Shown in pieces: positions 24,600 through 29,951 of a stretch of DNA of 64,000 nucleotides. The stretch is taken from contig NZ_UNRE01000001.1 in assembly GCF_900537085.1 (NCBI RefSeq), positions 687,163-751,162 on the forward strand. The letters are read 5' to 3'. Every line of letters starts with the position of its first letter. The stretch's first letter is position 1. The notes below the pieces were generated by a model, which worked only from the letters and a program-made list of their open reading frames with translations, did not search any database and was not told where the DNA came from. Position numbers and translations under genes: made by a program. This DNA comes from Agarivorans sp. Alg241-V36. Its GTDB lineage: Bacteria > Pseudomonadota > Gammaproteobacteria > Enterobacterales > Celerinatantimonadaceae.

Positions 24600-24628
24600 A
24601 TTTAAAGTTGTTATGGACAATACTTACT

Positions 24629-26101
24629 ATGAAGTTGATTGGAAAGCCCCTTGGCTTGTTATTGCTGTTATCTTTAGCGGGTTGTGGCGGTTCATCTGAA
24701 ACCGCTGGAGTGGCTGATCCTGGCAATGAACCTAGTACGCCCGAAGAACCTACTACTCCCGAAGAGCCTACAAATCCAGATCAGCCAACAGAGCCAAGTT
24801 GCCTTAGCCCAAAACTGTTGAGCATTAGCCAAGCCAGTGATGATGGAAATCATAAAGTGGGCTATGGGCCAGAGAACTCTATCGACGGCAGCTTTGACAG
24901 TGAATCGCGTTGGTCATCAGAAGGAATTGGTAAGCAAATAACCTATAACCTAAGCAGTCCCTCAATTGTGACGGGTATAAGCCTTTACTGGCTAAACAAT
25001 ACCAATCGCTTTGCCTATTATGATCTGGCTATATCTACTGACAATCAGCAATGGCAGGAAGTTGTCACAGGCGGAATGTCCGACATAGCCACTGGCAGTG
25101 CAGAAGTGATTACCCTAACAGATGAGTTAATTGAAAACGTTCAATACCTACGTTTAACCGCTAACGGCAACTCCGAAAGTGATTGGAACAGCGTTATCGA
25201 GCTAACCGCAGAGGGCTGTAACGATGAAGAGGTTACCGAGCCGGTTGAAGATCTAAACCCTTCTTTACCGCCATCAGACAACTTTGACTTACAAGACTGG
25301 TATTTGAGCATACCCACTGATACCGATGGTTCCGGCACTGCTGATTCGATTAAAGAATCAGAGTTAAACAATGGTTATGAGAATAGCGACTATTTTTATA
25401 CCGGCGTAGATGGCGGCATGGTGTTTAAAAGCCCTATCTATGGCTACAAAACCTCTAGCAATACCACTTATGTTCGCACCGAGTTGCGTGAAATGCTGCG
25501 ACGAGGCGATACCAGCATCAGCACTCAAGGAGTGAATAAAAACAACTGGGTATTTTCTAGTGCGCCTAGCAGCGCTCAAAATAATGCTGGTGGGGTGAAC
25601 GGTGAATTGTTTGCTAAATTAGCGGTAAACCACGTGACTAGCACCGGAGAGGATTATCAGATTGGGCGGGTAATCATTGGTCAAATCCATGCTAACGACG
25701 ACGAGCCGGTTCGTCTTTATTACCGTAAGTTGCCTAACAACGATAAGGGAGCCATATATTTTGCTCACGAATCGCGAAATCAATCTGATGATGATTGGGT
25801 GGAGATGATTGGCAGCCGAAGTAATACCGCGAGTAACCCTTCTGATGGTATCGCTTTAGATGAGAAGTTTAGTTACCGCATTAAAGTAGTGGCTAACACC
25901 CTAACCGTTACCATTATTCGTGAGGGTAAAGCCGATGTTACTGCTAGCTACGATATGAGTGACAGCGCCTACGACGACCCAGACCAATACATGTACTTTA
26001 AAGCTGGGGTGTATAATCAAAATAAATCTGGCGATGCAGATGACTACGTACAAGCTACTTTTTACGCACTAAGCAATACCCACCAAGGTTACAATCCTTA
26101 A
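24629..26101 (+). CDS. PL7 alginate lyase lipoprotein with an F5/8-type carbohydrate-binding domain
   Basis: The lipobox LAGC (Cys 19) is followed by a Pro/Glu/Thr linker with repeated TTPEEP-like units, then a discoidin/CBM32-like domain (about 60-205, with VGYGPENSIDGSFDSESRWS). The PL7 catalytic domain fills 225-490. PL7 hallmarks are YVRTELREM near 280, IIGQIHAND near 350 and YFKAGVYNQ near 455, holding the Arg, Gln/His and Tyr used in beta-elimination. It would be anchored to the cell surface or outer membrane and depolymerise alginate. A TTG at 24608 is an alternative start. No other alginate gene is close. Confidence 0.93.
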   Translation: MKLIGKPLGLLLLLSLAGCGGSSETAGVADPGNEPSTPEEPTTPEEPTNPDQPTEPSCLSPKLLSISQASDDGNHKVGYGPENSIDGSFDSESRWSSEGIGKQITYNLSSPSIVTGISLYWLNNTNRFAYYDLAISTDNQQWQEVVTGGMSDIATGSAEVITLTDELIENVQYLRLTANGNSESDWNSVIELTAEGCNDEEVTEPVEDLNPSLPPSDNFDLQDWYLSIPTDTDGSGTADSIKESELNNGYENSDYFYTGVDGGMVFKSPIYGYKTSSNTTYVRTELREMLRRGDTSISTQGVNKNNWVFSSAPSSAQNNAGGVNGELFAKLAVNHVTSTGEDYQIGRVIIGQIHANDDEPVRLYYRKLPNNDKGAIYFAHESRNQSDDDWVEMIGSRSNTASNPSDGIALDEKFSYRIKVVANTLTVTIIREGKADVTASYDMSDSAYDDPDQYMYFKAGVYNQNKSGDADDYVQATFYALSNTHQGYNP

Positions 26102-27644: not shown

Positions 27645-28091
27645 ATGAAACTTGTTACCTTGCTGCTTAGCCTGTTAATGGCCTTACATGTGCACGCTGC
27701 TGGAAGTGGCCGTTATGAAACTCAACAGACTAGTTCACCACTCAGCGCGGCTGAAGACATGCTTAGCGAGCAAAACTATCTTGAAGCCAGTGTATGGCTT
27801 AGTGATTATCTGCAAAGCAAAAAGGGTCGCCGCTCTGCCGATGCTTGGAATCTGCTGGGCTTTAGCTTGCGTAAGCAAGGTCACTACCCGCAGGCTTTAT
27901 ATGCCTACCAACAAGCCTTATCTATCAAACCTTCTCACCTTGGTGCCTTGGAGTATTCAGGGGAGTTGTATTTGAGTTTGCAAGAGCTAGCGCGCGCCGA
28001 GCAAAACCTAGTGCGATTGGAACAATATTGTGGAAATTGCCAAGAGCAACAACAGTTAAAAATGGCGATTTCTCGCTATCTTGCTGAATAA
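27645..28091 (+). CDS. Exported TPR-repeat protein
   Basis: After a signal peptide (LLLSLLMALHVHA, about 18) come three TPR-like units: AEDMLSEQNYLEASVWLSDY, ADAWNLLGFSLRKQGHYPQA and LGALEYSGELYLSLQELARA. Two cysteines (CGNC) near 129 may form a disulfide. Such 148-residue periplasmic TPR proteins act as scaffolds; the partner is unknown. AAGGAAA precedes the ATG. The 162-bp repeat abuts its ribosome site. Confidence 0.85.
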   Translation: MKLVTLLLSLLMALHVHAAGSGRYETQQTSSPLSAAEDMLSEQNYLEASVWLSDYLQSKKGRRSADAWNLLGFSLRKQGHYPQALYAYQQALSIKPSHLGALEYSGELYLSLQELARAEQNLVRLEQYCGNCQEQQQLKMAISRYLAE

Positions 28092-28246
28092 TATGAATTT
28101 TGTCGTCAATCGGCGACGATCGCTGTTTAGTGTTAAATCTCGGTATCTAGGCTTATTTAGTGATTTGTAAGGCTATGGCTTGAGTGAAACTCTTTTCAAC
28201 AACATATCTTGGTGAACTTCGGTTTTAACCTAATTGTCACTTGAAA

Positions 28247-28290
28247 TGTGATTCGTGTCACACTAAATTATAGGTGTGACTTGGATCACG
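28247..28290 (+). promoter_or_regulatory. Two CRP-like sites ahead of the first small ORF
   Basis: TGTGATTCGTGTCACA (28247-28262) has both perfect half-sites of the CRP consensus TGTGA-N6-TCACA. TGTGACTTGGATCACG (28275-28290) differs at one arm base. Centres are 28 bases apart. The second small ORF has the same pair. Confidence 0.7.
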
Positions 28291-28335
28291 TTTGATTTGA
28301 GACACTAATGATTTTAAATACTTAGGAGAAAGATT

Positions 28336-28434
28336 ATGTTTGATTATTTTGGTGCACTTTACTCGTCGTATTATTTTACTAAAGCTGATGATTACAACTT
28401 TTATTGCGAAACTCGCAAAGATATTCACCGTTAA
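28336..28434 (+). CDS. Small aromatic-rich protein, first paralogue (32 residues)
   Basis: The frame begins MFDYFGALYSSYYFTKADDY and ends with DIHR before TAA. A strong AGGAGA ribosome site lies seven bases upstream. It is paralogous to the ORF at 28753: 16 of the first 20 residues agree, and many codon differences are silent third-position changes (TAT/TAC, TTT/TTC), which indicates selection on the protein. It is Tyr/Phe-rich with no membrane segment. A longer overlapping frame at 28340-28525 lacks this conservation and is a shadow. Two CRP-like sites lie upstream and a terminator downstream. Family and function are unknown to me. Confidence 0.75.
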   Translation: MFDYFGALYSSYYFTKADDYNFYCETRKDIHR

Positions 28435-28454
28435 AATTAGCTATAGGTGGATAT

Positions 28455-28541
28455 ATGGTTCTTCATCCGATCATTGGTTCAGCATTATCAACTTATGTTC
28501 GTTTCGGGTGCTTAGAGCAAGGTAAACGACAGCAGAGATAA
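28455..28541 (+). CDS. Possible second small ORF in the first unit
   Basis: ATG at 28455 opens a 28-residue frame starting MVLHPIIGSALSTYVRFG and ending GKRQQR, with AGGTGG five bases ahead of the ATG. It lies between the first small ORF and its terminator. The second unit has no clear equivalent, so coding is uncertain. Confidence 0.3.
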   Translation: MVLHPIIGSALSTYVRFGCLEQGKRQQR

Positions 28542-28566
28542 TAGTAATGAATCAACTTAACCCCAG

Positions 28567-28602
28567 TGCCTGAAACGAGCTCGCTCCTTCAGGCATTTTT
28601 TT
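28567..28602 (+). terminator. Terminator of the first small-protein unit
   Basis: TGCCTGAA and TTCAGGCA arms around an 11-base middle (acgagctcgct), followed by seven T. The stem sequence recurs in the second unit. Confidence 0.85.
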
Positions 28603-28680
28603 ATTCCTTTCCCGACGCTTTCCCTCTTGTTCGATTCTTGAACAAATTATTTTAGTAAAAACTTTAAAACAAACTTGCAA

Positions 28681-28725
28681 TGTGACGCGTGTCACACTAT
28701 TATCTGTTTCGTGAGCTGGTTCACG
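28681..28725 (+). promoter_or_regulatory. Two CRP-like sites ahead of the second small ORF
   Basis: TGTGACGCGTGTCACA (28681-28696) has both perfect half-sites. CGTGAGCTGGTTCACG (28710-28725) has one changed base in each arm. Centre spacing is 29 bases, against 28 in the first unit. Confidence 0.7.
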
Positions 28726-28752
28726 CTTTTATTGGTTTCTAGGAGAAACACT

Positions 28753-28845
28753 ATGTTTGATTACTTTGGTTCTTTATACACAACTTACTACTTCACTAAA
28801 GCTGCGGATTACAAAGCAACAGATTCTAACAACCTACACCGTTAA
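28753..28845 (+). CDS. Small aromatic-rich protein, second paralogue (30 residues)
   Basis: The frame opens MFDYFGSLYTTYYFTKAADY and ends NNLHR. AGGAGA lies seven bases upstream, in the same context as the first paralogue (AGGAGAAA/AGGAGAAA). Divergence between the two is mostly silent or at two or three positions near residues 7, 10, 11 and 18; the C-terminal third diverges but both end in HR. There is no signal peptide or membrane helix. The unit is complete: paired CRP-like sites, ORF, terminator. Function unknown; it could be a regulatory peptide or a dual-function RNA. Confidence 0.75.
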   Translation: MFDYFGSLYTTYYFTKAADYKATDSNNLHR

Positions 28846-28943
28846 TCCTCACATTTGAACATGTGGGCTTAGCACTTAGCCTTTCGCAATGCCGAGAGAG
28901 TGACAGTCAACTGAGCGAGAATACACTATGAGTCAAATGTTCT

Positions 28944-28979
28944 AAAATGCCTGATAGCTTAAAAGCATCAGGCATTTTT
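28944..28979 (+). terminator. Terminator of the second small-protein unit
   Basis: AAAATGCCTGAT and ATCAGGCATTTTT are long arms with an 11-base loop and a T-run. It shares the TGCCTGA/TCAGGCA core with the first unit. Confidence 0.88.
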
Positions 28980-29069: not shown

Positions 29070-29951
29070 ATGTCGTTAGTTCAACCTCTTATTCTTAAGT
29101 CCCAACAGCATCATGCTAGTTTTTTGCGCTTTAGTCTTGTTGACCGTGAGGCCTTAGCTGATTGTTTAAGCCAAATCCAAAGGCTTTACCGAGCAGACGA
29201 TACGGTGATTGGCTTTGGCCAGCCATTGTTAGCCATGAATAACACGGTGGTAGAGGGTGTAAAGAGTGCTGAGAGCATTCAAGGCCCTAAGCGCACCAGC
29301 CCAGCCAATCAGGATGATTTATGGTTACGGGTGAGTGGCAGCGATCCGGGTGAAGTGATGTTACGTGTGCAAGAGTGGCTAGATGTATTAGTGCCAAGCT
29401 TTAGCATGAACGAGCAAGTGAATGGCTTTTGCCACCGAGAAGGGCGTGATCTTTCTGGTTATGTAGATGGTACAGAAAACCCAGAAGACAATGCCGAGGC
29501 CGTAGTCGCTAAAACTGGTGATAAGGGCATTGCTGGTTCAACTATGCTGGCAGTACAAAAATGGCAGCATCAGCTTAAGCATTTCAATAGCCTGCCTAGC
29601 AAACATCAAGATGACATTATTGGCCGTCGTAAAAGTGATAATGTTGAATTTCCTGAGTCGCCACCTTCGGCCCACGTTCGTCGCACAGCGCAGGAGAGCT
29701 TCACGCCAGAGGCCTTTATGCTTCGTCGCAGCCTGCCATGGGCTGAGCAGCAAGATTGCGGATTAAACTTTGTTTGTTTTGCCAATAGCTTTTATCCATT
29801 CGAAGCCCAGTTAAAGCGCATGCTGGGTTGTGAAGATGGCATTGAAGATGGTTTGTTTGAATTTAGCCGACCATTAAGCACTGCTTACTACTGGTGCCCA
29901 CCAGTAGAGGCCGATGGACAAGGTTTGGATTTAAGTGTGCTGCAGGCTTAA
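29070..29951 (+). CDS. DyP-type peroxidase, YfeX-like
   Basis: This 293-residue protein contains the DyP signature GYVDGTENPEDN (GxxDG) near 129, with the distal catalytic Asp. The proximal haem ligand is the His in SAHVRRTAQ near 201, and the distal Arg lies in MLRRSLPWAEQQ. There is no Tat signal, so it is cytoplasmic like YfeX. It uses hydrogen peroxide to oxidise organic substrates; a role in haem handling has been proposed for YfeX. Ribosome site GAGAAA. It lies alone, after the small-protein terminator. Confidence 0.93.
   Translation: MSLVQPLILKSQQHHASFLRFSLVDREALADCLSQIQRLYRADDTVIGFGQPLLAMNNTVVEGVKSAESIQGPKRTSPANQDDLWLRVSGSDPGEVMLRVQEWLDVLVPSFSMNEQVNGFCHREGRDLSGYVDGTENPEDNAEAVVAKTGDKGIAGSTMLAVQKWQHQLKHFNSLPSKHQDDIIGRRKSDNVEFPESPPSAHVRRTAQESFTPEAFMLRRSLPWAEQQDCGLNFVCFANSFYPFEAQLKRMLGCEDGIEDGLFEFSRPLSTAYYWCPPVEADGQGLDLSVLQA

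Follow-up and report, generated by a model that had tools for sequence, protein, structure and literature searches.

What kind of gene stands twice in a row between a TPR-protein gene and a Dyp-type peroxidase gene of Agarivorans, a marine bacterium that degrades seaweed, and when is it expressed? In the window (the whole 64-kb stretch of DNA analysed here), two consecutive and complete units, unit 1 (28241-28602) and unit 2 (28675-28979), are flanked on one side by the TPR-protein gene (27645-28091), located beside a pstS-like gene, and on the other by the Dyp-type peroxidase gene (29070-29951). Both units have a common plan: (i) a sigma70-type promoter; (ii) two CRP-like palindromes, spaced by 28 bp in unit 1 and 29 bp in unit 2; (iii) the sequence AGGAGA; (iv) a small ORF of 32 (unit 1) or 30 (unit 2) codons with the shared pattern MFDYFG...YYFTKA...HR; and (v) a TGCCTGA/TCAGGCA terminator. 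The preliminary description of this DNA had pointed out the shared layout of the two consecutive units; every part of it is present, and it is kept in 7/7 Agarivorans genomes. The best explanation as a whole (probability of about 0.6) is that each unit is an independent gene for a small protein that would act when preferred carbon is plentiful and would be repressed by CRP. The features of both units are as follows:

28241-28269 (+): unit 1 promoter core, -35 TTGAAA (28241-28246), 17-bp spacer, -10 TAAATT (28264-28269), predicted start at ~28276; promoter scan, arrangement common to all copies.
28247-28262 (+): unit 1 CRP-like site 1, TGTGATTCGTGTCACA, within the promoter spacer; exact consensus match, half-sites invariant in seven Agarivorans genomes.
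28275-28290 (+): unit 1 CRP-like site 2, TGTGACTTGGATCACG, overlapping the predicted start; consensus search, kept in all genomes.
28324-28329 (+): unit 1 ribosome-binding site AGGAGA; read directly, kept in relatives.
28336-28434 (+): unit 1 small protein, 32 aa, MFDYFGALYSSYYFTKADDYNFYCETRKDIHR; dN/dS 0.095 (seven genomes), homologues in three genera.
28452-28483 (+): unit 1 block of 32 nt, invariant in seven Agarivorans genomes; possible RNA-level function.
28455-28541 (+): unit 1 possible second ORF, MVLHPIIGSALSTYVRFGCLEQGKRQQR, after AGGTGG; open in seven genomes, pS 0.130 versus pN 0.043, silent sites suppressed.
28566-28602 (+): unit 1 intrinsic terminator, GTGCCTGA...TTCAGGCATTTTTTT (TGCCTGA ... 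TCAGGCA, T-run); read directly, stem predicted in the fold, skipped by the terminator scanner because its loop is >8 nt.
28675-28703 (+): unit 2 promoter core, -35 TTGCAA (28675-28680), 17-bp spacer, -10 TATTAT (28698-28703), predicted start at ~28710; promoter scan, arrangement common to all copies.
28681-28696 (+): unit 2 CRP-like site 1, TGTGACGCGTGTCACA, within the promoter spacer; consensus search, conservation in relatives.
28710-28725 (+): unit 2 CRP-like site 2, CGTGAGCTGGTTCACG, with two departures from TGTGA-N6-TCACA; read directly, palindrome kept in relatives.
28741-28746 (+): unit 2 ribosome-binding site AGGAGA; read directly.
28753-28845 (+): unit 2 small protein, 30 aa, MFDYFGSLYTTYYFTKAADYKATDSNNLHR; dN/dS 0.043 (seven genomes).
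28846-28880 (+): unit 2 near-invariant block after the stop codon, 34/35 nt, with a small hairpin CUCACAU-UUGAAC-AUGUGRG; alignment and fold.
28948-28979 (+): unit 2 intrinsic terminator, TGCCTGA...TCAGGCATTTTT (TGCCTGA ... TCAGGCA, T-run); read directly, stem predicted in the fold.

Two further observations concern the window itself. The sequence ATGARTCAA is present just 5' of each terminator (28547-28555 and 28928-28936), and an ATG followed by A occupies the same pre-terminator place in the third copy of genome G006 (ATGAAACAA), in Alginatibacterium (ATGAACCAG, after GGAG) and in Aliagarivorans (ATGAGAAAT); ATGARTCAA could be the start of a mini-ORF of 4-8 codons or an RNA signal. Elsewhere, an ORF at 24608-26101 begins with a signal-like sequence, contains a linker rich in Thr, Pro and Glu, and has a putative alginate lyase-like region.

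Purifying selection acts on both small ORFs, which are therefore real genes. Among the orthologues of the seven Agarivorans genomes, dN/dS values are far below 1 (the 0.095 and 0.043 listed above) and the changes from orthologue to orthologue are overwhelmingly silent. The proposal of a selected, and presumably translated, small-protein family is thus borne out. The preliminary description had also stated that the two ORFs of the window differ largely at silent positions. Actually, that silent bias belongs to the comparison of orthologues: the peptides of units 1 and 2 have 60% protein identity, and, of the changes between their ORFs, 12.5 are silent (17.5 silent sites) and 17.5 are replacements (72.5 sites). 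In the alignment of 10 MFDYFG sequences, the pattern of conservation is MFDYFGxxYxxYYxxKAxxY...[DN][IL]HR. Units 1 and 2 of the different genomes each resemble their own kind and, in consequence, the duplication is older than the divergence of the examined Agarivorans genomes. Since the two copies retain different C-termini, they probably have separate partners or roles.

Neither peptide has a match in Pfam or NCBIfam, and a literature search found no description of the Agarivorans MFDYFG peptide family. The earlier claim that such a family had not been described can be kept for the peptide, which is without a library match, but not for the kind of gene: CRP-repressed RNAs for metabolic regulators of ~30 residues are already established, VcdRP and AzuCR being the examples (PMC8672173).

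The family has a restricted distribution. The peptide units were found in 6/6 other Agarivorans genomes searched, where two are placed side by side (three in G006); Alginatibacterium and each of two Aliagarivorans genomes have a single copy. Profile searches of 395 genomes from the order and 369 from the class gave no further significant hit. A scan of ~85,000 species for the start motif MFDYF[GF][SA][LTM], which depends on that motif and may miss strongly diverged relatives, yielded confirmed members only in the three genera Agarivorans, Aliagarivorans and Alginatibacterium. In the first two, the unit lies upstream of the Dyp gene; in Alginatibacterium it has a different neighbourhood and, therefore, the family is not tied to a neighbour gene. 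The search for homologous ORFs with CRP-like sites, which had been suggested as a check, found such homologues, and the sites are kept in every relative.

The second part of the question, i.e., when these genes are expressed, leads to the promoter. In the 64-kb window, TGTGA-N6-TCACA is matched with at most one mismatch four times (1.4 expected in shuffles), and three of these matches, including the only two exact ones, fall in units 1 and 2. All copies are built alike: the 17 bp that separate the -35 from the -10 box are taken up by the first palindrome, and the predicted start site lies under the second. Aliagarivorans conforms to this arrangement, with a -10 box that is weaker. The spacer site is thus found in every Agarivorans and Alginatibacterium copy, and in Aliagarivorans. 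The promoter calls are consensus matches, of which five were found versus 2.5 expected in shuffles. The pattern TTGMAATGTGANNNNNNTCACNYTADWWT (-35 box, spacer CRP site and -10 box), drawn from these units themselves, was matched 17 times across the 395 genomes of the order; copies of the units account for 16 of the matches, and the remaining one, in G185, is without an MFDYFG-type ORF downstream. The reversed control of this pattern gave no match in the genomes listed.

Relative to the predicted start, the CRP-like sites are centred near -21.5 and +6.5 to +7.5. As an activator, CRP binds at -61.5 (class I) or -41.5 (class II). Unit 2 leaves no space for another start that would turn these into activator sites, as site 2 and AGGAGA are just 15 nt apart. 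The CRP encoded in this genome has a 20-residue segment that matches the recognition helix of E. coli CRP. As the CRP-like sites lie within the promoter core, where they are suited to obstruct RNA polymerase, and off the activator positions, repression by CRP-cAMP is predicted, the sign of control being deduced from this geometry and from analogy with known systems. The units are, then, most likely CRP-repressed and active with plentiful preferred carbon. From the cAMP-responsive reading initially proposed, the association holds, as the CRP-like sites are kept together with the peptide in every relative; its sense is refined to a predicted repression, given the position of the sites inside the promoter core.

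According to this reading, each unit would work as a short independent gene with an RNA of roughly 270-325 nt. On poor carbon, CRP-cAMP would occupy the spacer palindrome and the start-site palindrome and block RNA polymerase; when cAMP falls, the block would be lifted and the RNA made. The strong ribosome-binding site would then direct synthesis of the MFDYFG peptide, which might bind and tune a protein involved in carbon uptake or central carbon metabolism. A metabolic target is a guess by analogy with VcdP and citrate synthase, or AzuC and GlpD.

Those analogies come from well-described RNAs. In Vibrio cholerae, VcdRP is a CRP-repressed dual-function RNA of 306 nt whose 29-aa peptide, VcdP, activates citrate synthase; in E. 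coli, AzuCR and Spot 42 are reported to be CRP-repressed and AzuC stimulates GlpD, while sgrST is activated by SgrR (PMC8672173). The peptide might not act alone, as in some of these systems. Actually, a full dual-function RNA pair, i.e., a peptide plus mRNA pairing through 28452-28483 and 28846-28880 as in VcdR, AzuR or SgrS, is a possibility that we entertain tentatively. Within Agarivorans, a near-invariant block follows each ORF and, therefore, base pairing is possible. In unit 1, the 32 nt are invariant across the seven genomes even at positions silent in the possible second ORF (28455-28541), and the unusual conservation of the silent sites of that ORF points to constraint on the RNA or an overlapping signal. 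In unit 2, the block directly after the stop codon is kept at 34/35 nt, and the single substitution, of G by A, leaves the hairpin paired, with A-U in place of G-U. Against this, units 1 and 2 have different 3' blocks, neither of which can be recognised in Aliagarivorans or Alginatibacterium, where the peptide is kept; whole-RNA folding of both units is no better than that of shuffles; and among the 25 places in the genome that match the unit 1 candidate seed complement GGATGAAGAA exactly, there is no convincing site at a translation start (one is the block itself, and most others are inside coding sequence, several of them in copies of one repeated gene). The dual-function option already raised in the preliminary description consequently keeps the near-invariant blocks in its favour, and has against it their loss in the sister genera and the lack of a target among those seed matches. 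As a separate observation, a gene containing MKKHPNLLKEEGLHDAEHVLVSDITYLESDQGVHYLSLVT is present at at least six places in genome G000 (e.g., L135, L142, L145, L150, L153, L155) and is probably a mobile-element transposase.

A more specific version, which we regard as rather unlikely, is a paralogous dual-function pair: one ancestral CRP-repressed gene would have been duplicated, and its peptides and pairing segments would have diverged to different targets. If true, such a split pair would let one follow, in nature, how the coding and the pairing portions of a single RNA diverge in evolution.

It is also conceivable that the units are divergent homologues of VcdRP or AzuCR, representing that gene in a different lineage, its peptide having evolved rapidly. 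They belong to the same size class, have CRP-like sites and place the peptide first and the terminator last. For the comparison, VcdP was located through its place next to pepD in two genomes, which were taken as Vibrio because of this position and of the features given in PMC8672173, and the AzuC, SgrT and SpfP sequences were taken from the E. coli record. The azuCR promoter of E. coli is similar: it reads TTGATT-TTTGTGATGGTTGTCA-TATTAT, its spacer contains a CRP-like site, and another palindrome lies 30 bp upstream, an arrangement kept in close relatives of azuCR. The azuCR gene is also short, with a 28-aa peptide. But while the second palindrome is upstream in azuCR, it is downstream in the Agarivorans units, which form tandem copies instead of the single copy of E. 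coli; in addition, base pairing is reported for AzuCR. Unit 1 alone aligns to AzuC (YNFYCETRKDI / FNNYCKTFKDV; 0/500 shuffles as high). Nevertheless, this AzuC-like stretch is missing from the relatives of unit 1, the core Y-x-x-T-[FY]-K-[DH]-V-P-P is absent from the MFDYFG peptides, and hhalign gives a probability of 0.4% to the comparison of a 12-sequence AzuC alignment with the 10-sequence MFDYFG one (43/200 column shuffles score as high). AzuC homology was rejected, as the pairwise similarity is confined to unit 1 and fails in the profile comparison.

VcdRP, for its part, has the kind of short transcript predicted for the units, in which an ORF of ~30 aa is followed by a 3' portion and by an intrinsic terminator. 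On the other hand, its CRP site is upstream of the -35 box and not in the spacer; its locus is between pepD and a divergent permease gene, versus pstS-like/TPR genes and the Dyp gene here; and VcdP is unrelated in sequence (MKGLPSATFWLNSSVYTSNFAYPTSFGYK in a relative), so VcdP homology was rejected for the peptides recovered beside pepD. A VcdP search found nothing in the Agarivorans lineage, and no vcdRP was found between pepD and the permease gene in Aliagarivorans, Alginatibacterium or Agarivorans G006. As for the conserved four-cytosine pairing site of VcdRP, unit 1 has a CCCC ahead of its terminator, but G005 carries ACCC and G006 CCTC at this position, and unit 2 lacks it. Homology with VcdRP or AzuCR is, in short, disfavoured and quite improbable: as far as sequence can tell, the Agarivorans units would work like both, yet appear to stand outside their families.

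Two more systems were compared. Spot 42 is also a CRP-repressed carbon-metabolism RNA that encodes a small protein, SpfP, in E. coli, but this genome has a separate Spot 42 gene elsewhere; the Rfam search gave no match inside the units, Spot 42 (RF00021) included, with only weak sub-threshold matches upstream. SgrST combines a small protein and an RNA and acts on sugar uptake, but it is SgrR-activated (PMC8672173), without CRP control in the promoter core. As peptide candidates, SpfP (15 aa) is not similar to the MFDYFG peptides and the similarity of SgrT to them is not significant; both were rejected.

VcdP-like ORFs beside pepD occur outside the genomes taken as Vibrio, with 46% (G044) and 45% (G020, weak) identity to VcdP, as well as in G056 (MPGSNSTYWFAPSLYTQGFSYPNPFVTRR, weak); the loci are L114, L115 and L116. 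This suggests that vcdRP is older than Vibrio. The AzuC family is broadened by diverged relatives (L176, L179, L180, L181, L183) that share 36-48% identity with E. coli AzuC and have TTTGTGATCTRSTTCAAA-like sites ahead of them; they define its core as Y-x-x-T-[FY]-K-x-V-P-P.

A Tyr/Phe-rich leader peptide that controls a downstream gene by attenuation, e.g., the Dyp-type peroxidase at 29070, would account for the 8-10 aromatic residues per peptide of 30-32 aa and, in Agarivorans and Aliagarivorans, for the position ahead of the Dyp gene. This role is highly improbable in view of (i) the other neighbourhood in Alginatibacterium; (ii) the tandem arrangement of two or three units that each possess a promoter and a terminator of their own; (iii) the C-terminal HR, as strongly conserved as the aromatic start; and (iv) the terminators located ~100-130 nt beyond the stop codon. 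Least credible of all is a type I toxin-antitoxin system (small toxic peptide, tandem copies, antisense RNA), for despite the small size, the tandem duplication and a single AlphaFold helix (residues 2-25, mean pLDDT 64.5, low confidence), the peptides are hydrophilic overall (GRAVY -0.59 to -0.77) without a membrane-spanning stretch, the ribosome-binding site is not strongly sequestered in local folds, and the promoter scan showed no convincing conserved antisense promoter.

The best reading is, in consequence, that of a new small-protein family of the CRP-repressed kind, unrelated to the VcdP, AzuC, SpfP and SgrT peptides. VcdRP and AzuCR encode unrelated peptides, and both are CRP-repressed and tune a central enzyme. 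A further unrelated case, with a CRP-like site in the spacer (as in azuCR) and tandem paralogues, would argue for the repeated evolution, in bacteria, of CRP-repressed small proteins that tune metabolism under conditions of plentiful sugar. Furthermore, the constant promoter layout offers a promoter-based search for such genes, which is useful because the sequence of a small protein is too short to be followed over distance.
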